From the NCBI GenBank assembly GCA_028554795.2, contig CM068842.1, positions 29,394,077-29,458,076 on the forward strand: 64,000 nt of DNA, read 5' to 3'. The notes below the pieces were generated by a model that was not told the DNA's origin, made no database searches, and saw only the letters and a list, made by a program, of their open reading frames with translations. This DNA is from Sinohyriopsis cumingii. Taxonomy: Eukaryota > Mollusca > Bivalvia > Unionida > Unionidae. The position numbers and the translations under genes are program-made. Of this stretch, positions 18,101 through 63,430 are shown piece after piece; positions within the stretch are counted from its first letter, which is position 1; each line of letters starts with the position of its first letter.

Positions 18101-21100
18101 TAAGAGGTTAATGTTAGGACTGGTTGGCCTGGTGTCAGGATAATGTGACTGGGTGGGACATCATGTTACATGTCTGTGACATGATGCCCCAGTGCTAGAC
18201 ATCACTATAAACTGCCACATTGCAGACATCATAGTGACATGACTGAAGAATTGTTAAAGCTACGTTAAAAATCTAAATCACACACACACTCATACACACA
18301 TTACTTCATCTGTTTTGTGCAAAAACAAGTTATTTTAAGAATATATTTATTTGAAACATGTCTGAGTTTATAAATCTCTTTACAAAGAATGATTGCTTAA
18401 AACTTTACAGTTATAATTCTTGAAAATTTTGAAGTTTTATATGTTGGTTAGACAGTTTGAAATTTGTTATCATTGCCATGTTAAAATGTCAGACCTATTG
18501 TTGTTTGTATGTTGTCACATATATTGTGCACTGTTTTCAGTCATTACACATATTCATTGCCCTTATTCATAATTATTTTAAATGCCTGTTTTGTATTATA
18601 ACTCTTAATATAATAAAAAATATAACCAAATATGAATTTTTTTTGAAACAATTTCCGGTTTAGGTACAAAGAGCAAACAAAAAACCCCATGACTTCAAAA
18701 CATTTCTGAGAAATTTGTTAGTCGGTACTAGCTGATGAATTGTGTTAATCAAACATGCAACCATTTTATCACAAGTCCAGTGCCTTAATCACTGAACCAC
18801 AGTAGCTTCCTTGGCTTGGATTCCAAATGGGTTTTGGATTGTGATTCAAAGGGCTATATTGGGTAATGACAGACCCCAGACTCCATGCAGTCAGCACACA
18901 TAACCTATCCTTGTACTGCCAAATAAATGAATGCACTTTATAGGTGGGGGATATAAACAGTGTTTGAGATATGCACCAGGGTCATTTCCCCAGTGTTAAG
19001 GGAGAGATACAGTGGTCAATTCTGGTTGTACGAATGACTTGACCTTTTTATATAGAGAAAGTGATTGTATGGTCTAGGAAAATGACACCAACATTTCAAC
19101 ATTTTCTTTCATTCCCCCTACAGTTTCAATACCATCCAGGTGAGCAATATCATGCCCACTTGATCTTCTTGCTTATTCATGATATTTGCCTTAAGTGGAG
19201 ATGTTTAGGAGTAAGTCTTTAAGTGACCCAAGATTTTTTTATAGGTCACATGACCTTCAGAGTAAGGGAGCTTATGGTATGGCCTTCATCTGTTATCCAT
19301 TCATGATCTGTCTGTCTGTCGGCAGTTGTTACCACTTGGAAGGCCATATTCAGATCTGATTCTGACCAGACTTGGAATATGAGTTATGTCGGTATGTTGG
19401 ACAGTTAAGTTCAATAATGAGTAACATCAGTGCATATTAATGAGTTGATCCTGCATCTGATTGGCTGTGCTTGTTACCATTCTAGGCACTGTATGTCGGA
19501 CCCTACGCTGATAAACCTTCTTAATATGGCTAATATCATGATCATGTTGGAAGAGTTTTAACATGTCATGAATGAATTAATTATCTGATCTGATTTGCAA
19601 AGTACTAAAATATAGGCTGTTTTTTGTGATTTTCATCAAACTTGGTTAATAGGCTTAAGTAACCAATTTTAGTCTGACTGTGAACGAAATCCCATGAATA
19701 TTTAAATGATTTTGCATCTGATTGCTGAAGTTGTAAACACTCATGTGATTTTATTCCTGATAAGATTTTGATTTCGCTCAGATTGGTTAAATAGTCATGT
19801 ATCACTTAGATGTTGGATGTGTTCGATCGTAAGCAGTATCTCTGCATCTTTATGATGTAAACTTGTACCTGATTTTCACGGAAATTGCCATGTATTTTTG
19901 TTGTAATTTTAGTATGATTACCATTCTGCATACAGCATTTCCCAGTGTGTATATTTCTTTCCTGGTGAATGATTGTAACAGTGATGTTTACTTATCCGAG
20001 ACAAATAACTTAGTGTCATGTGTGCAAAGCGTCTGCAGTAGGAATTCATTTACTAATTGTTTCCCATTTTTTGTTTGATATCATATAAGATTATTTATAG
20101 TGCCAATTTCTTGATATATTTACACTGCATACAGGCCTTATCAGGAATTTGTCATCTTTACAATAAATGATCTATCAGCTTTAGAGGTACATAATGACAG
20201 TATTTAGGCATTATCCTTCTCTTTTTATCATTTGTCTTTGATACAATAATTGGACATCATTGTTCTCTTCCTATCATTTGTATTTAATAGAACAGTTGAT
20301 CATCATTGTTCTCTTTCTATCATTTGTGTTTAATATAATAATTGGACATCATTGTTCTCTTCCTATCATTTGTATTTAATAGAACAGTTGATCATCATTG
20401 TTCTCTTTCTATCATTTGTGTTTAATATAATAATTGGACATCATTGTTCTCTTCCTATCATTTGTATTTAATAGAACAGTTGATCATCATTGTTCTCTTT
20501 CTATCATTTGTGTTTAATATAATAGTTGAACATCATTGTTCTCTTTCTATCATTTGTGTTTAATAGAATAGTTGGACATCATTGTTCTCTTTCTGTCATT
20601 TGTGTTTCATATAATAGTGAGACATTATGCTTCTCTTTTTATCATTTGTGTTTAATAGAATAGCTTACCATCATTGTTCTCTTTCTATCATTTGTATTTA
20701 ATAGAATAGTTAGATATCAGTGTTCTCTTTATATTATTTGTGTTTAATAGAATAGTGAGACATTATCCTTCTATTTTTATCATTTGTATTTGATGGAATA
20801 GTTATATATCATTGTTCTCTTTTTATCATTTGTGTTTAATATAATAGTTGGACATCATTGTTTTCTTTCTATCTTTTGTGTTTGATGGAGTAGTTAGACA
20901 TCATTGTTCCCTTTCTATCATTTGTTTTTAATAGAATAGTTGGACATCATTGTTCTCTTTCTATCATTTGTGTTTGATGGAATAGTTGGACATCATTGTT
21001 CTCTTTCTATCATTTGTGTTTGATGGAATAGTTAGACATCATTGTTCACTTTCTATCATTTGTGCTTAATAGAATAGTTGGATATCATTGTTCTCTTTCT

Positions 21101-23275
21101 GTCACCTGTGTTTGAGAGAATAGTTGGACATCATTGTTCTTTCTATCATTTGTGTTTGATGGAATAGTTGGATATCATTGTACTCTTTCTGTCACCTGTG
21201 TTTGAGAGAATAATTTGGCATTATTCTTCTCTTTTGATAATCTGCTTTGCACATTTTAAGTTTCCATTCCAGACAGAATTAATGTAACACAAGGCTATGA
21301 GATTTAATTTAGCTTTTTTCATGCTAGTCTTATTTTTATTTGTGTGTTGACAGGTTGGATTGAATTATGTGTATATATAAAGTAAACAATGGGAGGCACT
21401 GTAGATTTTATTAATCTCATTTGATTTTTCAGTTTTGGATTGGAGATAGATTAATAAACTCATGTAATAAAAGATTATTCATTTTTTTAGATAGATACTT
21501 AATAGAACAGTTTTCACAGTTAACCAGGTCTTTTCATGTGTTTTCTTACATAACATGTATATTGGTGTTCTGACAAAAATATGTTGGATTTTATGGCTCA
21601 TCAATTATATCATTCAGTAGTGTAGTTTTATTTTACCAATTAATTATGTCTCACCTCTGCCCTTGTGGGTACGAGTCTCGGGCTCAGTCAACATGAGTAT
21701 TGCCAGTAGCTTTCTGTAGGTCAGTGGTTCTTACCAGGGTTTTCTGGGTTTTTCCTGCACCGGTTACACTGGTGGCCATGCTTATCTTGTGCTAAAAAAT
21801 GGCATTAAGCCCACACCAACAACATTAGTTTAGTTTAAGCTGAGTTTTGTTGATGTTGGTGGAACCATTGGTGTTGACACAAATATTTAAAGAGTTAAGA
21901 GTTCTAGTTCCCACATGTGTCAGAAGTCAGGTTCCCTGGAGTGGGTCCATCAGTGTGCAGAAAATGAATGTGATATATGGAATCATTTTTTGTATACACC
22001 CTAATAATGTGAAATAGTGTGGCATCCATATCCATTACTGAATAGTGTATCTTCATAATTTCATGTTACATGAATGACATGGTATTTTAACTTAATATCC
22101 ATTGTTGGACAATATATTCTTATATATTCATGTCTTTTAAACATGTCAGCTTCATATCCATTGTTGGATGTTATATTTATGTTTGTGAACATTGCAGTTT
22201 CATTCATTCATGTATTTTAAGAGAGTATCAGAGCTTCATTGTGTCTCATCACAAAACACAATATAATTGAATGAACAGAATAAATTATCTGTTGTGTTAA
22301 CAGTATATTACAATTCTTGTTATATTCACAAGCAAATGTTCATAGTTAACTAGGCAACATGTGAAAGAGAATTCAAAATACTATATTTTAAATTTAACAT
22401 GTCTTTGAAAAACTAAATTCTTATGCATGTGTAGACCATTTGCACAAAGAATTTGTTTAATCTAAATCATAGAATATATTTGTTTTGCCAGGGTGGCAGT
22501 TTCTCGAGAGGGTGGGGTCTCTAAAATGTGCAGTCCCCAAATAGCTTGACTGAATTCATTACTGTATACATATACATTTGTAAATGAATATATTGTTTCA
22601 TATCTGTTGGTCTGTCACTAATCTAAATCTCACTTTATCTATCCTGTGATACTGTTTGACTGAGCTAAGTTACTCTGGAGACCCTATATGACAGTTGTGA
22701 AATATGTGAAATCTGTGCAAACTAATGACCTAATCTTGCTTCCAATTGGCTGACCTTATGACCTCTCAAGAGCCAATATTACTTCCTGTATACATTGCCC
22801 AGTTATAATACATCAGGAGAACATCCATTACCTCGCAAATCCAGCCTTTCCAAGTGAAAAAAGAAATAAACCATGTTTCATTTATAGTTTTAGTAATAAA
22901 AATGCTTAAACATTGTTACTGAGATGGCAAGTCAGATGAGAGCAGCCTCCAGGACTGTTTGGGACTGGTACATTGTCTCAGTTAGACAAGGGTCTTTTAG
23001 AGTAAGAATTTATCTCTTGACAAGTGCATTTTTTATAAACAATCAAACACGCAGATTTAGAGGTAAAAAAATTCACTCATTGTTCATACAAATGCTTATC
23101 CCTTGGCCTGCGATGGATAGAGTGAAACTTACAAAGGATTACATTCAGTACATCATGTGCAACTTAAACGGATTGCCGGATATCATAACTGTGATTACGG
23201 CAGTAATATTGATTACATGGACTGGTTACCCATTGTCTGTTTCGTATGTAAATGTGCTTCCAAGTGTGTGTGTAA

Positions 23276-23310
<35 letters not shown>

Positions 23311-26300
23311 TTAGATTTTTAATGTAGCTTTAACAATTTTTCAGTCAATTCGCTACAATGTCTGCAGTGTGACAGTTTATAGTGATGTCTATCACTGGGG
23401 CATCATGCCACAGACATGTAGCATGATGTCCCACCCAGTCACATTATCCTGACACCAGGCCGACCAGTCCTAACACTAACCTCTTAATGCTGAGTGTCAA
23501 GCAAGGCAGCTGAATGTACCATTTTTGTAAGTCTTTGGTATGACTCGGCCGGGGTTCGATCCTGTGACCTCCCGCATCCGAGGCAGATGCTCTAACCACT
23601 AGGCCACCAGAGCAGTAGCTTCCAAGTGTGATTCGGAAAGCCAGTCAAAATGTGGAAGATCATGTAGTGGGTTTGACCACTCGAACATGTCATGTCTTTT
23701 TCAGATTATCTTAGTCCCCTATTTTAACAACTGTCCTATTTACGAAGTTGATATTTAAAGCATCCAATGTCAGATGCATTATGTGTTTCATACCAGATAG
23801 AATGTTCTTCATATAACCAAATTACAAATGATTATCTATTCATGAAGAAATGTCAAATTGGAAGGTCACAAACAAGGATATGTACATGGTCACAAGTTGT
23901 ACAGTGAAAATTGATTGAAAATTTAATAATTGAAGACATACGCATGAAAAATAATTCATATGTGAAACGAGTTTATTACTATTGTTTGAAAATAAAAACA
24001 GTAGTCCATTTCAACAGTTGCTTGCATCTCATGGGATTCTTGTAACTCAGCTTGGACTGTAGGCTAATACTAGCATCAAAATGAAAATAATGGATGACAA
24101 AACTGTGTTGTTGCTGATCATTTAAACTTTCATTACACTGATATTTTTGTTTGTGTGGAACCTTCTGAACTAATGTTTCCATTTATAATTCAGAGATGGT
24201 GTCCTGGAGTAGTTTCAAAGTTGGACAAGTAAGAAATTGCTTAGGACAAGTCACTTTTTCTTATTTACTTGTCTTGAGCAAGAGGTTGGAAAAATATTTG
24301 AACAGCCCATGTTTCCCCTTGGGATAGAACGGCTGACACCCAATCTCATTATTCTTCAGTTACTGCTTCCATTGTATCAGTCTGCATGCTGTTGCAATTA
24401 TAGAAAAAGTCATACAGGTCACGTATGCACATATACTCATCATAAATTAAATATAAACTGTTGTTATGAAATTTAATACTAATTTTGTTTAACAAAAGTC
24501 TGTTCAATCCTGATTATTGAATGGTCTGCACCTTAACTATCATCAAGAAACTTCCAGATGGAAATTATCGATTGCTATAGACTTTTACAGTGGTGGCCAG
24601 GTTCTAAATTGGGTCAAGCAAAGAGCAATTTAAGTCTAATTGTCACATTATAGGGTAGAACAAATTTGTTTATCAACATGAATAGCTTTCATTGTGACAT
24701 CACAGTTCATGACATTCAGTCCGGATTGTTCTGGATCACAGCTTTAGGTTGATCTCCAGAAATGTCCACGTACTGTAATATAGCTTCTTCCACTATGTAC
24801 TTTTTGGGGCATGTAAACAATGACCTTCCAAAGGAATATGGATGTATAAGGATCCAAATAAAGTGAATAATAGCCAGCTAAATATATGTAGATCAGATTC
24901 TAAAAAGTGACACCTATTACTGAAATAGTTGGTGTTGAATGCCTACATGACATGTGTGACTTTTACTAAAGAGCCCTTCCAGATGCCTTCCATTTTGTTC
25001 CTTCTTCTACCTGTTTGAGTGATCTTGGGAATTTCTTATCATAAGGGATGTATACTCCATATATTTTCTTACTTAATTTTACTCTGTTTTCATTGCAAAT
25101 ATATAGTTAGCAAGTCACTCATCTCCTTCTTCATACAGTAAGCTAACTGGCACCATCTTAGTTCTTGTCTTAGATGCTCAGTAGTAAACACATCTCAGTA
25201 CTTTACCTTGTCACATCATATTTCAAATGAATGATGCTTTATTCCAGGTAATTAACTCATTTCAGTAATTGTCTCAGGTATTTATTGCATACATTAGCAA
25301 TTTGGGGCTGGATTACCCATTAGGCTCAGTAAGGACATGCTTAGGCACCATTCCAACAGGGGCACCAAAAAAACTCTAATTGTTGATGATAACATTGATG
25401 AATTATTTATATGGCCATTTCAGTCTGCATGTACCAGTATTTTGATTTGAAATGCTGGCAATACTGGTATTTTTCCATCTTTATAGCTTTTAATATTGTT
25501 TATTTCGAGTGTCACATTTTGTAAGGGGGGGGGACCATAATATTTTCAGTGCTTAGGGCCCTGGAAGGCCTTAATCCAGCACTGCATCCACTTCACTGTA
25601 AGCAAAGTGTGATGCTCGACTGATATATCCCAATGTTTTTTTTCTCTTCAATTACACTATCAGATAGCATTAGGCATTGTTTGATGTGAGGCATGCAAAA
25701 GGTTAATCTGTCAAGAGATAATCACCACACCTATATCACCTGTATATTGTGTTGATCAGAACATACCTCTGAAATCTGTACTGTATAGTCAGATGTCAGA
25801 TGGGAAATTATTTCAGCCAGTTATGTGTTCAATGCTAGCAAGAGAGTCAGAAAACAGCGTGTTCAAATGATGAATGCTATCAGCCATTTATGTGTCCCAG
25901 GCTGGCAAGAAAGTCAGAAAACATTGTTCAAATGAAGAATGCTATCAGCCAGTTATGTGTCCCAGACTGGCAAGAGAGTCAGAAAACAATGTTCAAATGA
26001 AGAATGCTATCAGCCAGTTATGTGTCCCAGGCTGGCAAGAAAGTCAGAAAACATTTTTCAAATCAAGAATGCTGTCAGCCAGTTATGTGTCCCAGGCTGG
26101 CAAGAGAGTCAGAAACAATGTTTAAATGAGTGCTATCAGCCAGTTGTTTCCCAGGCTGGCAAGAGAGTCAGAAACAATGTTTAAATGAGTGCTATCAGCC
26201 AGTTGTTTCCCAGGCTGGCAAGAGAGTCAGAAAACATTGTTCAAATGATGAAAGCTCTCAGCCAGTTATGTGTCCCAGGCTGGCAAGAGAGTCAGAAAAC

Positions 26301-29300
26301 AGTGTTCAAATGATGAAAGCTCTCAGCCAGTTATGTGTCCAAGGCTGGCAAGAGAGTCAGAAAACAATGTTTAAATGATGAATGCTATCGGCCAGTTATG
26401 TGTCCCAGGCTGGCAAGAGAGTCAGAAAACAGTGTTCAAATGATGAATGCTCTCAGCCAGTTATGTGTCCCAGGCTGGCAAGAGAGTCAGAAAACAGTGT
26501 TTAAATGATGAATGCTATCAGCCGTTTATGTGTCCCAGGCTGGCAAGAGAGTCAGAAAACATTGTTCAAATGATGAATGCTATCAGCTAGTTATGTGTCC
26601 CAGGCTGGCAAGAGAGTCAGAAAACAGTGTTTAAAGTACGAATGCTATCAGCCAGTTATGTGTCCCAGGCTGGCAAGAGAGTCAGGAAACAATGTTTAAA
26701 TGATGAATGCTATCAGCCATTTATGTGTCCCAGGCTGGCAAGAGAGTCAGAAAATAATGTTTAAATGATGAATGCTATCAGCCAGTTATGTGTCCCAGGC
26801 TGGCAAGAGAGTCAGAAAACAGTGTTCAAATGATGAAAGCTGTCAGCCAGTTATGTGTCCAAGGCTGGCAAGAGAGTCAGAAAACAGTGTTCAAATGATG
26901 AATGGTATCAGCCAGTTATGTGTCCCAGGCTGGCAAGAGAGTCAGAAAACATTGTTCAAATGATGAAAGCTCTCAGCCAGTTATGTGTCCCAGGCTGGCA
27001 AGAGAGTCAGAAAACATTGTTCAAATGATGAAAGCTCTCAGCCAGTTATGTGTCCAAGGCTGGCAAGAGAGTCAGAAAACAATGTTTAAATGATGAATGC
27101 TATCAGCCAGTTATGTGTCCCAGGCTGGCAAGAGAGTCAGAAAACATTGTTCAAATGATGAATGCTATCAGCCAGTTATGTGTCCCAGTCTGGCAAGAGA
27201 GTCAGAAAACAGTGTTCAAATGATGAATGCTCTCAGCCAGTTATGTGTCCCAGGCTGGCAAGAGAGTCAGAAAACAGTGTTTAAATGATGAATGCTATCA
27301 GCCATTTATGTGTCCCAGGCTGGCAAGAGAGTCAGAAAACAGTGTTCAAATGATGAATGCTATCAGCTAGTTATGTGTCCCAGGCTGGCAAGAGAGTCAG
27401 AAAACAGTGTTTAAATGATGACTGCTATCAGCCATTTATGTGTCCCAGGCTGGCAAGAGAGTCAGAAAACAATGTTCAAATGATGAATGCTATCAGCCAG
27501 TTATGTGTCCCAGTCTGGCAAGAGAGTCAGAAAACAATGTTCAAATGATGAATGCTATCAGCCAGTTATGTGTCCCAGTCTGGCAAGAGAGTCAGAAAAC
27601 AATGTTCAAATGATGAATGCTATCAGCCAGTTATGTGTCCCAGTCTGGCAAGAGAGTCAGAAAACAATGTTCAAATGATGAATGCTATCAGCCAGTTATG
27701 TGTCCCAGGCTGGCAAGAGAGTCAGAAAACATTGTTCAAATGATGAATGCTATCAGCCAGTTATGTGTCCCAGTCTGGCAAGAGAGTCAGAAAACAGTGT
27801 TCAAATGATGAATGCTCTCAGCCAGTTATGTGTCCCAGGCTGGCAAGAGAGTCAGAAAACAGTGTTCAAATGATGAATGCTATCAGCTAGTTATGTGTCC
27901 CAGGCTGGCAAGAGAGTCAGAAAACAGTGTTTAAATGATGACTGCTATCAGCCATTTATGTGTCCCAGGCTGGCAAGAGAGTCAGAAAACAATGTTCAAA
28001 TGATGAATGCTATCAGCCATTTATGTGTCCCAGTCTGGCAAGAGAGTCAGAAAACAATGTTCAAATGATGAATGCTATCAGCCAGTTATGTGTCCCAGGC
28101 TGGCAAGAGAGTCAGAAAACATTGTTCAAATGATGAATGCTATCAGCCGGTTATGTGTCCCAGTCTGGCAAGAGAGTCAGAAAACAGTGTTCAAATGATG
28201 AATGCTCTCAGCCAGTTATGTGTCCCAGGCTGGCAAGAGAGTCAGAAAACAGTGTTTAAATGATGAATGCTATCAGCCATTTATGTGTCCCAGGCTGGCA
28301 AGAGAGTCAGAAAACAATGTTCAAATGATGAATGCTATCAGCTAGTTATGTGTCCCAGGCTGGCAAGAGAGTCAGAAAACAGTGTTTAAATGATGACTGC
28401 TATCAGCCATTTATGTGTCCCAGGCTGGCAAGAGAGTTAGAAAACATTGTTCAAATGATGAATGATATCAGCCATTTATGTGTCCCAGGCTGGCAAGAGA
28501 GTCAGAAAACATTGTTCAAATGATGAATGATATCAGCCAGTTGTGTGTCCCAGTCTGGCAAGAGAGTCAGAAAACAGTGTTCAAATGATGAATGATATGG
28601 GCCTTTTTGTCAGCACCACTTCATTAGTGAACTTATTAATGTTGCAGTTACTGGTGGCTGAGAAGTTACTGATGAAGAAAAAGGCCTGGCATTCTGTGCC
28701 ACTGTCCACCCCCCCCCCAGCTTTGGTGTGATAGTTACCCACTTTGCCACAATCTCTTCCAGTCATTCCAGCACTGAAAAGACTACCATGTCATTACCAG
28801 TACAGTACAGTGGCCAATGTGCACTATAACTGGACTCTGCACATACACCATGATACTGGTTATGGTGATTAATAATAATAATAACGATAATAATGAGGAC
28901 TTTGTATAACGCCTAATCTTTAGAAGCTCTAAGCGCTTTACAACATTAGACAACATCTGTAACATAAAAATACATATTAAATATGATTACAATAAAACAA
29001 ACACCATGAAATTAGAAAACATGAAACATGCTGAAAATATTTAAGGTAGGAAACATTATTAGGCTTTTAAGTTTGTTCTTGCAGTCAAAATAGGTGAGTT
29101 TTAAGAGCACTCTTGAATGAGATCACAGCATCTTTGTGTCTAAGTTCAGTGGGCAATTCATTTTGATTGAATTCAGTTTGATTAATCCCATGATAGCTTG
29201 TGGTGGACTGCAGGATATGACTTCAGCTGGCCACATGCCTTGTCCACTGCAGTCATGACGTCAATTGATTTACTCCTGGTGTCACCACTTCTGAGAGCAG

Positions 29301-38300: not shown

Positions 38301-41300
38301 GTGGCATGCAGTTCATCCATAATTGGATTAATTTCATTGAAAATCGTACAGATTTAAAATATTCAATAATTTTGTAATAGTCTGAATTCGTCGTGTAAAA
38401 TATAGGATGAACAAAATATTGAAACCATTTACTTGCCGTCTGATATCGTACGGTCATTGCATGCAGCTATTCCCGGGTCTACATACGGTGTCTGTACAAA
38501 TTTCATACCGCTAAAATTTTATCATATGCGACAACTGCAAGAATAATTAACAATCAACGCATGATTTCAGCGTGCAAATAACTTTTATTTCAGATTTTGT
38601 GAACATCAAAAGAAACATGTGAAAACTGCTAAATTAATCGTTGCGCAAAGTGCAAAGTCAGTGTGGTTCCAAATTTAAATTTCATCATTTCTTGAAAAAT
38701 ATATCCAATGACGTTTGCTTCTTTGCCGCGAACTGTTGGGTTCTAGCAAAGTCAAGAATGTTTCTTAATTGAAGGACTTTGACGCTGTCAACATCTTGTG
38801 TTTCCAGCCACCTTAAACTTGCTTCTAAATGTACTACTGCTTCAGACACTTTTGGTGGGGGAGTTGGGGTGCCATCGTCATCGTTATCATTATCGTCACT
38901 GGTTTCAGGTTCTGATTGTGCAGCTTCATTCTTCCTGCTGACATTTGTAACAATTTCATCATCTGATATGTGTTCATATATAGGGCAGATGTCATCTACT
39001 GAATACCAGTTAAGGATATCATGATGACTGTGCTCGTATTTTTTGAGTGCTTCTTCTGCTAAACATACGTCGTCTTCAGTGAATCCTGTAAATTCAAGCT
39101 CATCGTCACTATCATTTTGTGTCGAGGGCGTAAAAGCTGGCCCAAGACCCTTTATCCAGCATCGTTCAATGCAGCGTGCAGTGATAGCATCCCAGGCTTT
39201 ACCTCCAAGGTGACATACTTCTTTTAAGTTGAGTAATGCCAATGATGTGTCGACGGATGCGTTATTATCTGCTACCATTCCCTTTATCATTTCACGGCGA
39301 TAATTTTGTTTAAATACGGAAATTATGCCTTGGTCAAGTGGCTGGATTTCTGACGTAGTGTTTTTCGGGAGGTACGAAACTTTGATCTTGCCATCACTGC
39401 TGACAAGATTTTCCGCTGGGGGGTGGGCAGGGCAATTATCCAGCAGGAGGAGAGCTTTTTCCTCCAGCTTGAGTTTTCGTAAATGAGCCCGAACATCTGG
39501 AACGAATGTTTTGTGAAACCAGTCGTCAAATATGGAGTTATTCATCCAAGCATTCTTGCTGTTATTGTACTGAAATGGAAGTGCCTTCATATTTACATGA
39601 TGAAAACATCTGGGAGCTTTCGATTTTCCAATCATCAGAGGTCTGACTTTGTGGCTGCCAGACTTGTTAACACAAAATAAGAGAGTCACTCTGTCCTTCC
39701 TCTTCTTGAAACCTTCTCGTTTGTGACTGTCAGTCTTGGTTGCAAGAGTGCGATCGGGTAACATTTTATAACATAAACCAGTCTCATCACAGTTGTAAAC
39801 TTGGTCGGCTGTGTAGCAACCGTCCTCCAGCAACTTTTTAAGCCCAATCGGGTAGGAATTGGCAGCCTCTTTGTCAGCGGAGCGGATTTCCCCAGACACA
39901 AGAACTTGGCTGATAGCGTGCCTTTTCTTGAATCTGTCTAGCCAGCCATTACTCGCCTTAAATTTGGAATCATCTCCATTGATACGGCGATCAAATTTCT
40001 CTGCTTGGGCTTTCAGAATTGGGCCAGAAATTGGAACACCTTCTGAGCGAGCTTGTACAAACCATTGGTACAAAGCTGAACATTGTCATTAGCTAACTTA
40101 ACCCTTTTACGCTGTAAACCAGTTTCCTCTTCAAGAATGTTGGGTAGACTACGGAGCTTTCCTTCATCTGTTTTCCACCCTCGCAAAGTGGACTCGCTGA
40201 TTCCTAGATCTCTGGCAAGCTGAGTTTGTTGTTTGCCCTTCTTTAGTTGATCTAGGGCATACAGTTTCTCTTTAGCAGAAAACGACTTGCATTTTTGAAC
40301 TTGCTTTTCCATAACAGTAAAATATTTTTTTATATAAGCAAACAACGTACACAGATAAAGCTCGATAACTAAGTAATGAAGGCCTGCAATGGTTACGAAT
40401 CACTTTTTATATAAAACAAAATTAAGCTGAATGGATGTACAATTTCATACCCTTTTAATTTACAGCTAATAAAGTGGATATTATTTACTTTCAACTGTTT
40501 GTTGTTTGATCACACCGCCAAGCACAGCATACATGTTGGCGGCTTTCGTCCTTTGATGTTTATTAAATTGTGCGACTCTTGTATCAACCACAGCTTTGTC
40601 TGCTGCTTGGCTGTGATTGCAGTTAAATAAGAAGCCCATGTCGGCTATTGTTTGAGCAACGACTGTATATAGAATTCATGGAAGACAATCACAAAGACGA
40701 TTTACTGGCTTTACTCATGGATCCGTAATAAGTAACACTTCTGATAATGTTTACTTTGGCTTAACAATTCAAAAACCTAATGAAACCAGTTTTCTCTTCT
40801 AGAGTAGAATACGGAGCTTCACCACAACCTGTTCAAATTGATAAATTTCAGAAGCCAAGCGTTGTACACACTATTTCTCGTACGTTATATATATCGTATT
40901 ATTTTAGAATTCATACACGATCACTTCTCCAAAATCACTTAAAGAACCTGGATAAATTGTTAAGTTCCGATCGTTTATTATTAAAAGTCATACGCAAATT
41001 CTTCCACCAAATCATAATAAACGTTTTACACACTATTTCTCGTACGTTAAACAAATATTTTCACGGTCCGATAAAAATACATGTAAATGAATTTCAAATT
41101 TCAGGAACCATGCCACGATCATATTATTTTAAAAGTCACAACTAATCTCATGCCCAAAATGAAGTTAATTTCTTGTTTTGTTTTTTTTACTTTCCTCCAA
41201 ATTTTTTTTCTCCATGTGTGAATGAATATACGAAATTTCGGGAGCCATGCTACGACCGCGTTATATCCGAATTCGCGTTATGGTGGGGCGCGTTATAGCG

Positions 41301-42519: not shown

Positions 42520-43465
42520 GAAGAGAATGATGCAATCAACATGGTCATCACCAGCTTATTAGAAGAAATGCTACAGTCAAATACCAGTAGATTAGAGGGG
42601 AATGCTACAGTCAGTACTAATATATTAGAGGGGAATGCTACAGTCAATACCAGTATATTAGAGGGGAATGCTACAGTCAATACCAGTATATTAGAAGGAA
42701 TGGTACAGTCAATACCAGTATATTAGAGGGGAATGTAAAAGTCAATACCAGTATGTTAGAAGGAATGCTACAGTCAGTACCAGTAGAATAGAGTGGTTGC
42801 TACAGTCAAGACCAGTATATTAGAGGGGTTGCTACAGTCAAGACCAGTATATTAGAGGGGTTGCTACAGTCAGTACCAGTATGTTAGAAGGAATGCTACA
42901 GTCAATACCAGTATATTAGAGGGAATGCTACAGTCAGTACCAGTAGAATAGAGTGGTTGCTACAGTCAAGACCAGTATATTAGAGGGGTTGCTACAGTCA
43001 AGACCAGTATGTTAGAAGGAATGCTACAGTCAGTACCAGTATAGTAGAGGGGAATCATGAAGTAAGTGCCAGTAGATTAGAAGGGATGCTACAGTCAATA
43101 CCAGTAAATTAACGGTGAATGTTGCATTCAATACCAGTAGATTAGAGGGGAATGCTACAGTCAGTACCATTATATTAGAATAAATGCTACAGTCAATACC
43201 AGTATATTAGAGGGATAGCTACAGTCAAGAGCAGTATATTAGAGGGGAATGCTACAGTCAATGCAAGTATATTAAAGGGGAATGCTGCAGTCAATACCAG
43301 TAGATTAGAGGGGGAATGCTACAGTCAAATACCAGTATATTAGAAGGAATGCTACAGTCAATACTAGTATATTAGAGGGGATGCATCAGTCAATACTAGT
43401 ATATTAGAGGGGAATGCTGCAGTCAATACCAGTAGAATAGAAGGGATTCCACAGTCAATACCAGT
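42520..43465. repeat. 33-bp minisatellite, about 28 copies
   Basis: Unit TATTAGAGGGGAATGCTACA + GTCAATACCAGTA. Copies vary (GGTTGC, AGGAATGC, CAAGACC). A period divisible by 3 leaves repeat frames open on both strands; no start context, splice sites or domain support a gene. Confidence 0.93.
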
Positions 43466-43600
43466 ACTGTATTTTCCAGCCTATAAGTTGATACTTTTGA
43501 CTTGAAAGTGAGGTCTTTGTCTTATTCTTCAAATCGACTTATATATGGATTATGTCATATCAGTTGCATCGACTTATATATGGATTACGGTACCTGGTAT
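43466..43600. repeat. Possible pogo-like terminus with 20-bp direct repeats
   Basis: The stretch CAGTACTGTATTTTCCAGCC...TATAAGTTGA resembles transposon ends of the 'cagta...tataagtcga' type, and ATCGACTTATATATGGATTA occurs twice (43533-43552 and 43569-43588). It could be the left end of the element whose transposase relic lies at 44684, but no matching right end was found. Confidence 0.35.
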
Positions 43601-57250: not shown

Positions 57251-57800
57251 ATATAAAGATCTATGAATATAAGGATAGACGGACATAAAGATCTATGAAT
57301 ATAAGGATAGACGGACATAAAGATCTATGAATATAATAAGGAGAGATTGATATAAAGATCTATGAATATAAGGATAGACGGATATAAAGATCTATGAATA
57401 CAAGGATAGACGGATATAAAGATCTATGAATACAAGGACAGATTGATATAAAGATCTATGAATATAAGGATAGATTGATATAAAGGTCTATGAATATAAG
57501 GATAGACGGATATAAAGATCTATGAATATAAGGACAGATTGATATAAAGATCTATGAATATAAGGATAGACGGATATAAAGATCTATGAATATAAGGACA
57601 GATTGGTATAAAGATCTATGAATATAAGGACAGATTGGTATAAAAATCTATGAATATAAGGACAGATTGGTATAAAGATCTATGAATATAAGGATACACG
57701 GACATAAAGATCTATGAATATAAGGACAGATTGATATAAAGATCTATGAATATAAGGACAGATTGATATAAAGATCTATGAATATAAGGACAGATGGATA
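57251..57800. repeat. 32-bp minisatellite, about 17 copies
   Basis: Unit ATAAAGATCTATGAATATAA + GGATAGACGGAT, with ACAGATTG and ACGGAC variants and one copy with an extra TAA. Lies about 1.5 kb upstream of the Gly/Met-rich gene. Confidence 0.95.
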
Positions 57801-59287
57801 TATGGAATAGTATAATACTTATATATATACATCTATTCATTCAGCCCAAACCTGACTTAATTACTTACATCATTATGTACAACTGGAAAGAGAAAAAAAT
57901 GTATCTTCATGAACCGTTATTTAAATTGAAATTGCTTACAAGATGACTGAATAGTATAGTAATAACATGTCTAATTTATGTTTGTTATGTTACACAGCCT
58001 TGGTGCAGGATCGGTGGAGCTAGTGTCTGAAGAAGGGGTAATTTTTAAACAGAAAAAAATGTACATTTAATCGAACTGGAATCGACTTAAGATTTTATTA
58101 ACATAAAGCGGAAGGAATATTGCTATGAAACTTATCTATCGATTTATCAAATATATACATCAGAACTTTCGGAAGAAGATCACATTGGTAACGAAAATGT
58201 CAAAGGCGTGAGCGGGGAAAGCAGTAAAATTAAATATAAAAATCATTAATTTCCCGTTTGTTAATGATTTCAAATACATGTATTTTTCAGAAGAACGGGA
58301 TAGACCAGGTATGCATTTTTAGGCACTCATATTTGGTCAATGTATCGAAAATAAAGCATCGCTTTTATATAGTTCAATCTAACTGTATCCAAGCCAACAA
58401 AACAAGTTACTAATATCGGAGAAAAATGCCAGCGTAGGTTAAGCATTGTGGATATTTAATTGGTCAAAAAAGTTGTTTCATATAGATTAGTAGCCATCTC
58501 ATTAGAAATTAAAACTAAAACACTTTCCTTTCACTTACCTAGCACCGTTGCAAACAAATGAAAGTAACGATAACACAAAATTACCCCCAACCCCCCACAA
58601 TTGTATTAATAGAGTGAGCTAAAATGCAAACCTATAGGCGAAAAACACAAACAATAAATACTCTCCAGCAATATAAAAGTTTCTGTCCAGAAGGTTGCTA
58701 ACATTATATGCATTTTGTCAAAGTGAAAAATTATCACAAAGGGATATACATATTTATATATCTAAATAGGAAATGTAAGATAATTCAGGAACCTAGTAAA
58801 TAGTACACATAACTGTCTCGGCATTGTTCTTCTTAACTTTTACTAGGATTTGCCTTTCATCTGCTATAAAAGTGTTTATTTGCAACTGTTTTCAAATATG
58901 TCACAGTATGTTCTTGATTAAAGCGAAGCTATAGGCAACTTCCTTTCATCAAACATAAAACATTTCCAACCTGACCTGGAATAACTGAACTGAAAAGGCA
59001 CACATTATTTTAAGAAGCAAGATTAACAAAATTGAGAGCATTTCCATGTCCAGTTGTACAACACATAGTCTGGTTAAACATTAAGTCCTTTGTGTAAAGC
59101 GCTCAGAAACAACGTACATTGAGCAGACGACAATGCAGAACGTGTTCGACAAAATTATAAACACGTTATGCCACCTTTGATGTTGTCCATGACGGTTCAG
59201 AAGGGGACACATACGGTCGTGACATAGCCAGACCGATGTTTTACCCTTTGACATTATCTTTTTACATCTACTTCCGTTGAGGTTCAC
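57801..59287 (+). other. Upstream flank of the Gly/Met-rich gene
   Basis: No exon or repeat was recognised. It presumably contains the proximal regulatory region of the gene starting near 59318, but apart from the TATA box no element can be named. Confidence 0.4.
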
Positions 59288-59295
59288 TATATAAT
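59288..59295 (+). promoter_or_regulatory. TATA box of the Gly/Met-rich gene
   Basis: TATATAAT lies about 30 bp upstream of a TTCAGG initiator-like sequence (59317-59322), where exon 1 is predicted to start. A strong TATA box fits a tissue-specific, highly expressed gene. Confidence 0.65.
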
Positions 59296-59319
59296 GCCGA
59301 GTTAGTTCAAGAAATATTC

Positions 59320-59366
59320 AGGCCAGCCATTCAGACGGACCTCACTGCATCTCCACGTCTTTCAAG
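59320..59366 (+). other. Non-coding exon 1 (5' UTR) of the Gly/Met-rich gene
   Basis: Bounded by the predicted transcription start and a strong donor CTTTCAAG|GTGAGC at 59366. It carries no ATG. The intron is 488 bp (59367-59854) and ends CTTTTGCACAG. The 5' end is an estimate. Confidence 0.65.
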
Positions 59367-59854
59367 GTGAGCATACCAAAACATTCCAGTAACAGAAAAT
59401 ATACTAATATGTACAAAATGACCATATCATTATTAATTGTAATATTCTTCTTCTTTTTCTTCTTCTCAAAGTAACTTCTAAATCGTCAGCACCAGTTAGA
59501 TAATATGTCATTTTAAGTGAGTTTATAAGTCACTCCAGTCTTTTATGTTATCACGTTATCTGTGTATATATGCCATTTTTTTTGCTCGCGATATTACATT
59601 TACATTTTTCGATACCAATAAATATGTAATATCTAAACAATTATTTCATTACAATTAGTACCTACTTACAAGCAAACCGTTTGTAGACAGATTTAGAAGG
59701 TTTCATTACATACCTAACACCTTATTTATTTTATTTATCTGTCTTCGAAATGCATGAAATGTTGGTAGTTTGTTACCTTCTTTCTTTTTATCCAAAGAGT
59801 GTGCCTGAACTTTCAATTGAAAAACTGCATTATATTTTTTATTCTTTTGCACAG

Positions 59855-59928
59855 AAATACCGACACAATGAATCCGTTATTTTCTACCCTATGTCTCGCC
59901 TTTGTGGCAAGTACCTGGGCATACGGAG
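59855..59928 (+). CDS. Exon 2: signal peptide of the Gly/Met-rich protein
   Basis: Starts after TTTTGCACAG with 13 nt of 5' UTR; ATG at 59868-59870 in the context CACAATGA. Encodes MNPLFSTLCLAFVASTWAYG plus one base, then donor GGAG|GTGAGA. Cleavage is predicted after Ala18. Confidence 0.87.
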
Positions 59929-60839
59929 GTGAGAGATTCTTCATTCACGACTCTTATTTAGGATACATATTCGTAGTTTTATTTTCTTTTTAATTTTTTT
60001 CTTCTTTTAATGTTCATTTTTTATAATCGGGTTTCTTTTCTTTTCCACTCCTCCCATAAAACGTATTTACAAGTGTTATTTATATTGTTATCGATACGAA
60101 TCCTCACAAACAAGGTTTGTGTGAATGTTTGTTTTAATATAGCCAAGGACAAGCCGTCACTTTGACAGTTTTGTGTTAGATATTTGCGGTGAAACCTTCA
60201 ACAGCTTGTTCAATTTAGCTGTCACATTTCTCTTCGTAAGTCCAACGAAGATGTTATTAATAGAAACTAATGCATTAAGTGCTAAACGTAAGTGCATTTA
60301 TGTAACTTTGTAAATCGTAATGTACTTTGTATAAAAAAACAATAAATTAAAACTGAGAAAGGTTGTATTATGCTAACTATCGCCGGGTGTTTGTGGCCCC
60401 CTTTTTACACAGTTAATTTATGGACGTCATGTATTCAATACACCATTCAGAAGTTGATATTTTTTCGTTCGAAAGGTGCTTTAATCAGTATTCATTAACT
60501 GCTATAACGTTAGTGGCAAATATAATCTTGCAACAGAGCTGCATTTTTTGCTTTATGGAAACATTTATCTTTCAACATTTTTCCGAAATTTCCCTAGTTC
60601 TTTTTAAAATTATTCGAAAATGTCTAAGATTTATGATTCTAACACACAAATCAGTACAATTTCCCAGTAAACATCATGTTTTCACCTACTGCCAAAGGGC
60701 TATTACCTCTGTGACAAATATATGTTTACCATTTCTTCTTTGTTAACATCATTTTCAACACCGTCATTTTCATCAACATGGTTCCATTGATTTTGTGTCA
60801 TTGTTCTTTTTTTCCTTCATCTTCACAATCTTTATTTTG

Positions 60840-60875
<36 letters not shown>

Positions 60876-63185
60876 GGCAAAGGCATGGGCCGAAGCATGC
60901 CAACCATGATGAACGGTGGAGGTATGATGGGCGGTGGTATGCCAATAACGGGTGGTATGGGCGGCGGTATGCCCATGATGATGGGAGGTGGTACGCCGAT
61001 GATAATGGAAGGTGGCATGCCGGGTATGATGGGCGGCAAAACCGGAATGGCCACGATGGGAGGAATGGGCGGCGGCATGCCAATGATGGGAGGAATGGGC
61101 GGCGGCATGCCAATGATGGGAGGAATGGGTGGAATGCCTATGATGGGAGAAATGGGTGGAATGCCAATGATGGGAGGAATGGGCGGAATGCCAATGGGAG
61201 GAATGGGCGGAATGCCAATGGGAGGAATGGGCGGTATGCCAATGATGGGAGGAATGGGCGGTATGCCAATGATGGGAGGTATGGGCGGAGGAAAGAAGTA
61301 CGGTAAAAGTAAGTAAACTTTGACAAATGTTTGCCTTGATGTAGTGTATCTTTAATGTCTATTGTTTTTCGTAGGTCTAATATAATTGATGAAAATATTC
61401 GTATCCTAAGTTCTAACCTTGAAGCTATGTTCCTGCTCTTTTTCTACATGTTAAAGACTTCAGTTTTTATTCTAGATTTACATAATAGCATTGTCATACA
61501 TTCTTGGTTATGCGATTAATATATCAAAAAAAAAACAAACAAACAAAAACAAAAAAAAAAAAACAAAAAAAACAAATAAAGGAGATAAAAATCTTCCTAC
61601 GAAAATCGACCTATCACATTCCTCAGTTGATTATGGAAACTTATTTTCTCTAGTGTAGATGCAATACTTGAAAAACTATTTAGAGACGACTTGAATTTTA
61701 AAGATTATATTGGTTCTCTTGACGCCCTTGAATACATGTTAAAAGCAAGAATTGTATAATAATCTGAGTGGAAAATTGCTTAATGTAATTATAAATATCT
61801 ATAGTAAAATTAAGTCATATGTGTGCATGACTATTGATTTTTCCGATTTATTTCTTTGTCAGTGTTAAATAAGTAAAGATGAAAATCTTTCACTCAGCAG
61901 TTTATTGCTGTTCTTTTTTGCAGGAGCTAAACGATACGCAAAGAGAGGTACGTAGAAAAGAACTCTTTAGATTGAAACTATAACTTTAGTGCTGTATTTT
62001 TCATATATACATTCAACTGAACACTTCAGAAGAAAGAGGGCAGCGTAATTTCTATTTAGGAATAAGAAAGGAAAAATGAAAGAGACATACCTACCTACAT
62101 AGATACATACATACATACATACATACCGGCAGGCAGGCAAGCAAACAAGCTGATAGAAAAACTGGCAAATATTAATTTCTTTTGAGCTTTTGTTATGCTA
62201 ATATAGTGTTACAATGTATTTCAATCTTTTAGAAAAAGTCGTTAAGTGTTTATTATAATCAACGAATAATCATAACATAGGAGGAATGGGCAGTGGTATG
62301 CCAATGCCAATGATGATGGCTGGTGGAGGAATGGGCGGAATGCCAATGATGATGGGAGGTGAGATGATGCCCATGATGTCAGCGATGAGAGGAGGAATGG
62401 GCGGAATGGGCGAAATGGGTGGCATGATGATGAAGGGAGGAATGGGAGGCATGATGATGCCAATGATGGGCGGTGGTATGACAGAAATGCCAATGATGGG
62501 AGGAGGTATGCCAATGATGGGAGGAGGTATGCCAATGATGGGAGGTGGTATGCCAATGATGGGAGGTGAAATGCCAATGATGATGGGTGCAGCGGGTGAA
62601 ATGCCCCCAATGGGCGGAGCTGGTGGAATGCCCGCAATGGGCGGAGCTGGTGGAATGCCAGTGATGGGTGGAACAGGCGGTGGCAAAGGTAAATATAAAT
62701 AAATCAATAAATAAATAAATAAAAGTTAAAAGATTTGCTAGTTTTGAAAGTTTGTCAGTATAGTAAAGTTATATAAGACAGAATACCCTTTCCCATGTTT
62801 TGCCGATGTGCTAATACTTTGTGTATACAGAAAATTAAACGTTAAATTTAATCTCCAGTTAATTACTTTAGATCAAAAGATTTGTTTAGTAGGGACGGTA
62901 CAAATGCTGATGTAAAGTCATCTCACAACCTCTTTCCAATTTCACCTATCCTGAGAAGAAAGTATTTGGTAAATTCTCTAAATCACATTCGATGTCTCGA
63001 CCTAATTGAACTGATCATATTGTAAGATCGTCATTTCTTTTTAAGTCAGTTATAAATATAACATGATCACGTTATCTAACATGACAGTAACACGATTTCT
63101 ATGAATTCTATCATGGAAATGTGAAGCGTATGTCTCTTGTGTTTTCATGCAAAACCTTCTATTTTATTTTTCAGGAAAGTATTAA
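59868..63185 (+). CDS. Secreted Gly/Met-rich repeat protein, 311 aa, five coding exons
   Basis: Join 59868-59928, 60877-61308, 61924-61947, 62281-62688, 63175-63185 (936 nt including TAA). All four coding introns are GT-AG and phase 1, so the frame is continuous. Residues 1-18 (MNPLFSTLCLAFVASTWA) form a classic signal peptide. The mature chain is built of GGMGGMPMM-type repeats, about 40% Gly and 35% Met, with Pro, occasional Lys/Arg and no Cys. Two long repeat exons (144 and 136 codons) flank a basic mini-exon (RAKRYAKR), and each repeat block ends GGGK.. with a Tyr (GGGKKYGK; GGGKGKY at the C-terminus). No known domain is recognised. By composition it could be an extracellular structural or biomineral-matrix protein; that is inference. 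Exons are GC-rich against AT-rich introns. The start codon is the first ATG in exon 2 and the one that gives the signal peptide. Confidence 0.88.
60839..60875. repeat. (ATT)n microsatellite at a splice acceptor
   Basis: About 12 ATT units run directly into the TATAG acceptor of exon 3 and replace the usual polypyrimidine tract. Confidence 0.92.
60877..61308 (+). CDS. Exon 3: first Gly/Met repeat block (432 nt)
   Basis: The acceptor is ATTATTATAG, at the end of an (ATT)n microsatellite; the donor is AAAA|GTAAGT. Encodes GKGMGRSMPTMM... followed by about a dozen repeats such as GGMGGGMPMM, GGMGGMPMM and GGMGGMPM, ending GGMGGGKKYGK. By count about 62 Gly and 50 Met in 144 residues. At DNA level it is a 24/27/30-bp coding minisatellite. 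Proline-rich frames on the opposite strand are shadows. Confidence 0.9.
61924..61947 (+). CDS. Exon 4: 24-nt basic mini-exon
   Basis: The acceptor is TTCTTTTTTGCAG, a good polypyrimidine tract; the donor is AGAGAG|GTACGT. With the split codons it encodes RAKRYAKR. It is phase 1 on both sides, so it can be skipped without changing frame. Two KR pairs could be proprotein-convertase sites. Confidence 0.75.
62093..62150. repeat. CATA/GGCA microsatellite in intron 4
   Basis: (CATA)n followed by GGCAGGCAGGCAAGCAAACA in the 333-bp intron between exons 4 and 5. Confidence 0.9.
62281..62688 (+). CDS. Exon 5: second Gly/Met repeat block (408 nt)
   Basis: The acceptor CATAACATAG has a poor polypyrimidine tract; the donor is CAAAG|GTAAAT. 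Encodes GGMGSGMPMPMMMAGGGMGG..., then GGGMPMM repeats, then a distinct GGAGGMPAM/V tail ending GGTGGGKGK(Y). About 52 Gly and 51 Met in 139 residues including the last exon. Related to exon 3 in composition, repeat type and ending, which suggests exon duplication. Confidence 0.9.
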
Positions 63186-63430
63186 AATCAAGAATACCTC
63201 CAGAACAAGAAATGAACTTATAATTGCCAATATAACTATTTAAATTGTTGAAATGTATATTTTGTACAATTTCGCAGTACTATACAATATAAAAATGGTC
63301 GTTATGACGTCACACCTCGCATGCCAATCGGTAACAAGATCAATGAAGCAGGTCCAAGGTGCAATTCTTAATTTTCGATAATGTAAGATTTGTGTATTTG
63401 GAAGTACAAATAAATGTTACCACAAAGTTC
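63175..63430 (+). CDS. Exon 6: last codons and 3' UTR
   Basis: Acceptor TTTTATTTTTCAG; codes GKY and TAA (63183-63185). About 245 nt of 3' UTR follow to the polyadenylation region. Confidence 0.85.
63409..63414 (+). promoter_or_regulatory. Polyadenylation signal AATAAA of the Gly/Met-rich gene
   Basis: Canonical AATAAA 224 bp after the stop codon; cleavage would be expected near 63425-63435. Confidence 0.8.

Follow-up and report, generated by a model that had tools for sequence, protein, structure and literature searches.

A tandemly amplified gene for a secreted-looking methionine- and glycine-rich protein, probably a bulk structural material, in the unionid bivalve Sinohyriopsis cumingii

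Gene model and product

The window analysed here is a stretch of 64,000 nucleotides from Sinohyriopsis cumingii (GenBank assembly GCA_028554795.2, contig CM068842.1, here C19; window C19:29394077-29458076), and it was compared with the whole assembly (2.90 Gb, 1138 contigs). At positions 59,288-63,430 it holds a six-exon gene on the forward strand, and sequence comparison confirms this as a real and complete gene for a secreted-looking protein rich in methionine and glycine. A sequence-only reading of the window had assigned to it a TATA box, a non-coding exon, a signal-peptide exon, repeat exons, a stop codon and an AATAAA signal, all of which were located. The gene is the first copy (copy 1) of a large tandem array, and identities in the following list refer to other members of that array.

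59288-59294, + strand: TATA box TATATAA; TATAAAA or TATATAA lies at the same spot in those other copies in which exon 1 is present.
59310-59366, + strand: non-coding exon 1 (5' end approximate); 93.0% identity in copies 2 and 7, versus 73-75% for intron 1.
59855-59928, + strand: exon 2, with the ATG at 59868 and the signal peptide MNPLFSTLCLAFVASTWA, which has a hydrophobic core.
60877-61308, + strand: exon 3, the first Gly/Met block, with KKYGK at its end; 90.8% identity to copy 7, indels in-frame.
61924-61947, + strand: exon 4, 24 nt, the central basic patch, which includes RAKR; matched 169 times in forward orientation across the genome and never in controls.
62281-62688, + strand: exon 5, the second Gly/Met block, whose GGGKGKY end is formed together with exon 6; 91.8% identity to copy 7.
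63175-63430, + strand: exon 6, with the stop codon TAA (63183-63185), the 3' untranslated region (UTR) and AATAAA at 63409-63414 (3' end approximate); 89-90% identity to copies 2 and 7.

The four introns between coding exons of this gene are all of phase 1 and have GT/AG ends. Translation of the model yields 311 residues, the length given in the earlier reading, among them 115 Gly (37.0%) and 102 Met (32.8%). The composition of about 35% Met and 40% Gly originally ascribed to the product holds for its mature part (34.7% Met, 39.2% Gly and 9.3% Pro without the first 20 residues) and overstates the full chain. Likewise, the claimed absence of Cys is true of the mature part only, the sole Cys being located in the signal peptide. 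The mature part is also devoid of His, no Phe occurs after residue 20, and the acidic residues amount to seven Glu and no Asp. Predicted secretion is supported by a signal peptide called from sequence and hydropathy rather than by a trained predictor.

The most frequent tripeptides are GGM (35), MGG (34) and MPM (19), and the commonest 9-mers MGGGMPMMG and GGGMPMMGG. Tyr is found at positions 19, 162, 169 and 311 and Lys at 22, 75, 160, 161, 164, 167, 171, 224, 308 and 310, with Lys and Arg together confined to 22, 26, 75, 160-172, 209, 224, 308 and 310. Except for Lys 75 and Lys 224, the Tyr and Lys residues cluster near the N terminus (YGGKG), in the patch KKYGKRAKRYAKR encoded by exons 3 and 4, and at the C terminus (KGKY); with the repeat blocks between these clusters, the chain has the layout of a block polymer. 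The central patch contains RAKR in the window copy and RTKR in a fully read unit on contig C62 (the C62 type). Furin-type enzymes recognize the consensus R-X-K/R-R, which RAKR matches, and a cut at this site is predicted to yield one chain of about 150 residues and another of about 143. In line with the earlier statement that the product has no known domain, searches against Pfam, NCBIfam and PDB returned no match at E up to 1. Structure prediction from the single sequence of exon 5 alone, weak evidence in either direction, gave no confident fold (mean predicted local distance difference test score 57.8, predicted template modelling score 0.19).

Conservation between copies

Exons are better conserved than introns. 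Between copies 1 and 7, exons 1-6 are 93.0, 89.0, 90.8, 91.7, 91.8 and 89.9% identical, as against 74.8, 69.6, 72.0, 75.0 and 82.9% for introns 1-5; between copies 1 and 2, the corresponding values are 93.0, 87.7, 89.5, 91.7, 89.4 and 89.0% for exons and 73.1, 70.0, 74.1, 77.2 and 85.2% for introns, intron 2 being represented by at most its last kilobase throughout. All 11 indels that distinguish exons 3 and 5 of copy 1 from those of copies 2 and 7 are multiples of three, partly because the repeat units themselves are, whereas 38 of 45 and 37 of 48 intron indels in the two comparisons are not. Exon 6, which is mostly UTR, differs from that of copy 7 by one 7-nt indel. The TATA box, splice sites and signal peptide are conserved among copies.

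The ratio of nonsynonymous to synonymous substitution rates (dN/dS, Nei-Gojobori) in the Met/Gly frame was 0.33-0.51 in all ten pairs formed by copies 1, 2, 7, 12 and the C62 type, with Fisher p < 0.05 in nine of them (the exception is 7 versus 12, p = 0.16); the pairs lack independence, and gene conversion has probably occurred. Read in either of the remaining forward frames (three pairs), the same alignments gave ratios of 0.75-1.15, none significant. An earlier alignment of 11 pairs had yielded 0.06-0.67, with p = 0.22 for copies 2 and 7. By this measure, purifying selection acts on the Met/Gly frame and not on the other two forward frames. Residues of copy 1 are retained in copies 2, 7, 12 and the C62 type, respectively, at 80/89, 84/89, 80/85 and 90/97 positions for Met, 82/99, 88/99, 86/96 and 96/110 for Gly, 10/10, 10/10, 10/10 and 9/10 for Lys, and 3/4, 4/4, 4/4 and 4/4 for Tyr; Thr is poorly kept (4/8, 2/8, 2/8 and 4/8).

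A large tandem array

Gene DNA including introns gave 77 matches, on C19, C62 and C350 (40 of 536 candidates scored), and the longer matching stretches are mostly 73-77% identical. Fourteen copies were located within 264 kb from the window start, one of the underlying searches covering the + strand only, and a separate scan with the exon 4 pattern detected no reverse exon 4. At the 14th copy no exon 3 or exon 4 anchor was found. Two further complete copies lie in the next 20 kb, together with the first exon of yet another. Copies 5-12 repeat at a distance of 14.2-14.5 kb, and C19 copies from the 15th onward are spaced 9.6-9.7 kb or 13.0 kb apart. Ten of the first 13 copies (1, 2, 4-10 and 12) have a frame that runs intact from the ATG to the stop codon. 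In copy 4 the donor that follows exon 4 is GC, and the mature parts of copies 2 and 10 each contain a single Cys.

The exact pattern CAGGNNNNAAACGATACGCNNMGANAGG, which spans exon 4 and the acceptor, occurs genome-wide 169 times in forward and never in reverse orientation; the reversed pattern, used as control, has no match on either strand. Among the 100 matches listed, 20 lie on C19 (29.456-29.728 Mb), 76 on C62 (2,391-777,027 of 781,501 bp) and four on C350. Exon 3 was also searched for at the protein level; with 127 of 595 candidates scored, the listed matches are 57 between 60 and 676 kb of C350 (790,537 bp) and 45 on C62, with a typical unit spacing of 9.6 kb; 98 of these 102 are free of stop codons, the other four being on C62. 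Three C62/C350 units share 99.1-99.5% identity with each other and 97.6-98.2% with the 15th copy. The C62 unit that was fully read has exon 1, the signal peptide and all other exons, and encodes 308 residues, which beyond residue 18 are 36.6% Gly and 33.8% Met. The figure of 169 describes this assembly and is not a proven haploid number, since C62 and C350 either continue the C19 array or form a second haplotype.

These many near-identical, intact copies in a single orientation are what a dosage-amplified array would look like. The edge copy is diverged (synonymous divergence of 0.19-0.25 between copy 1 and copies 2, 7, 12 and the C62 type) and the interior C62/C350 units are nearly identical, a pattern to be expected if unequal exchange homogenizes the middle of the array. 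Because gene DNA with its introns recurs, exon 4 matches occur in one orientation only, frames are intact and selection is frame-specific, the gene is more than a chance reading frame. The sequence-only reading was correct as to the gene; the array with its 169 exon 4 matches and the retained Tyr/Lys and RxKR clusters had not been foreseen.

The array spacing is interrupted between copies 4 and 5 by a + strand block of long open reading frames (ORFs; C19, about 29.506-29.523 Mb). They encode an integrase core with chromodomain, an A32/FtsK-type ATPase and a weak match to type-B DNA polymerase, and the block looks like a Maverick/Polinton-like element.

Other features of the window and the assembly

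On its - strand, the window contains Pogo/Tigger-type transposase ORFs (38688-40399; DDE_1, HTH_Tnp_Tc5 and CENP-B_N). In a minisatellite at 25813-28598 a 65-bp unit is repeated 43 times, and further repeat arrays lie at 20217-21234 (46 bp), 42550-43466 (32/65 bp) and 57251-57802 (32 bp). Scans of the window for Rfam families (gathering threshold) and for tRNA genes gave no hits. Elsewhere in the assembly, COX1 is found twice on C807, 15,961 bp apart, seemingly in a head-to-tail dimer of mitochondrial DNA (mtDNA); F-type mtDNA of S. cumingii has been reported to have exactly this length (PMC7510820). A second, lower-scoring COX1 type on C1106 would fit the male-type mtDNA expected under doubly uniparental inheritance.

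Discussion

Its composition, predicted secretion, retained cross-linkable clusters and copy number suggest that the product is a bulk extracellular material, probably a structural one such as shell-hinge rubber or shell scaffold. The 169 exon 4 matches in one orientation fit a product that is needed in bulk. More specifically, we consider it about an even chance that the protein is a flexible, cross-linked and abundantly secreted elastomer that works like abductin, most likely in the hinge ligament. The mantle epithelium would secrete it in bulk, copy number supplying gene dosage, and each intact gene product would contribute two largely unstructured Gly/Met/Pro blocks. Cleavage at RxKR could separate these into the two predicted chains, oxidative cross-linking of the Tyr/Lys clusters may then create an insoluble network, and the Gly/Met blocks would act as flexible or polyproline-II chains that confer elasticity. 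The ligament is ranked before a shell scaffold because a protein with seven Glu and no Asp is nearer to the ligament type of Pinctada. Kikuchi and Tamiya reportedly found bivalve ligaments to be rich in Met and Met sulfoxide, and the unionid hinge has aragonite fibres embedded in a resilient matrix. Of the roles proposed in the sequence-only reading, that of a mollusc matrix protein is strengthened by the source, a unionid bivalve that makes shell, nacre and hinge ligament, while byssus and a redox or metal-binding polymer were not borne out, the latter having composition alone in its favour. Adult unionids have no byssus.

The closest functional model is abductin of the scallop hinge, which is Gly/Met-rich, with cross-linkable Tyr and rubber elasticity (PMC13052691); its Gly/Met repeats, like the tails of GroEL, adopt polyproline II (PMC12571646). 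The window protein resembles it as a secreted bivalve chain of low complexity, dominated by Gly and Met (39.2% and 34.7% after residue 20), with Tyr outside the repeats and an expected flexible or polyproline-II conformation. It differs in having two blocks joined by RxKR and a Met share about twice that of the abductin repeat. The Gly-Gly-Met unit and the polyproline-II tendency are also shared with the C-terminal GGM tails of GroEL/Hsp60, but these are short, intracellular and have another role (PMC12571646), so that we regard this as resemblance only. In Pinctada, the insoluble fractions of ligament, nacre and prisms contain Met-rich proteins, those of the ligament without acidic regions, and Met-dependent cross-links have been proposed by the authors (PMC7591529). 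Like LMP and the insoluble Met-rich ligament proteins of Pinctada fucata, the window protein is Met-rich, lacks an acidic-rich region and comes from a bivalve, though it is far simpler in composition and array-encoded; with the nacre proteins NU-5 and MRNP34 it shares a signal-like N terminus and a Met-rich region, both comparisons resting on the published descriptions. NU-5 itself differs in its size of about 180 kDa and its Glu- and Ser-rich regions. The Lottia shell-matrix protein GMP_LOTGI is likewise secreted and rich in Gly and Met, but at 20% Gly, 18% Met, 12% Ala and 10% Leu much less extreme (PMC4094399).

Several observations weigh against a hinge elastomer encoded by a dosage-selected array. 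The repeat of abductin is GGFGGMGGGX and includes Phe, whereas the window protein has GGMGGMPMM-type repeats and no Phe after residue 20; abductin is very low in Pro, as opposed to 9.3% here; and the N-terminal domain of abductin is rich in Ala and carries two Cys as well as two of the three Tyr, in contrast to a chain without Cys after residue 20 and with Tyr at 19, 162, 169 and 311. With its defining motif, low Pro content and Cys-bearing N-terminal domain all absent, the protein may be abductin-like in working but is not an abductin; an abductin consensus query, run without a positive control, had no match in the genome. Nor does composition single out the ligament, as Met-rich proteins are also present in nacre and prisms, and RxKR and KGKY could serve other purposes. 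The exon 5 model includes one helix of 26 residues, of low confidence. Three of the first 13 copies are broken: exons 1 and 2 of copy 3 were not found, nor could exon 5 be modelled cleanly there, and in copies 11 and 13 the frame of exon 3 is shifted. C62 and C350 may represent a second haplotype, which would halve the true number. Finally, copy number alone does not prove selection for dosage, because interior copies may be homogenized by exchange.

A possible alternative, to which we assign a lower probability, is that the product is an insoluble scaffold protein of the nacre or prisms, similar to NU-5 and MRNP34, rather than a ligament elastomer. Met-rich proteins dominate the insoluble nacre and prism fractions of Pinctada, and knockdown of NU-5 disturbs the nacre tablets (PMC7591529); in Lottia, the protein with 20% Gly and 18% Met makes up 9.14% of the identified shell matrix (PMC4094399). 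Yet NU-5 and similar proteins have Glu- or Asp-rich regions, which seven Glu and no Asp do not provide, and the text of a unionid nacre proteomics study contains neither 'methionine' nor 'Met-rich' (PMC6542584), although trypsin would reveal the window protein poorly. That the secretion belongs to another organ, as a glochidial larval thread or shell, juvenile byssus, egg coat or brood-chamber product, is unlikely in our view: a secreted, repetitive protein of high copy number would suit such a role, and many kinds of extracellular structure contain silk-like proteins (PMC4944945), but no evidence points to those tissues.

With 102 Met per chain, the protein might bind copper or silver through Met motifs, which are known in copper proteins, or form an antioxidant thioether polymer amplified for detoxification; this we judge very improbable, for the mature chain contains neither His nor Cys and the conserved Tyr/Lys clusters would have no role. 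Least probable of all is a satellite-like repeat that merely happens to contain open frames. The 99.1-99.5% identity of C62/C350 units and the openness of the repeat exons in other frames would be compatible with it, but purifying selection is frame-specific, TATA box, splice sites and signal peptide are conserved, indels are in-frame, and 98 of the 102 listed exon 3 matches on C62 and C350 lack stop codons.

A bolder version of the elastomer proposal, which we put forward as doubtful, is that the array, with up to about 170 genes, is dedicated to producing a unionid hinge elastomer whose stiffness is set by methionine chemistry, a redox-tuned protein rubber. Its premise is that one third of the residues are Met; the tuning would come from sulfoxide formation and from Met-Lys or Tyr-Tyr cross-links formed where the conserved Lys and Tyr cluster.

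The protein appears to be of the same kind as the known Met/Gly matrix polymers of molluscs, among which it would stand out by Met content, two-block design and copy number. No description of such a protein in S. cumingii was found in the titles and abstract beginnings of the open literature. In the accessible text, the S. cumingii genome paper stresses fibrillins and contains 'methionine' and 'tandem' not once (PMC10969987), and the mantle transcriptome paper likewise has no occurrence of 'methionine' or 'glycine' (PMC3544910). Four of the five tryptic peptides covering the repeat blocks comprise 37-85 residues and the fifth 15; such long peptides, prone to Met oxidation, could escape routine proteomics even if the protein were abundant. 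As the strongly insoluble proteins of bivalve ligament and shell scaffolds are hard to identify, the array offers a concrete candidate, and its repeat may serve as a lead for the design of Met/Gly elastomers. A structural protein produced from an array this large would be an unusual case of dosage amplification in an animal, for which the histone and fish antifreeze arrays are the comparisons.

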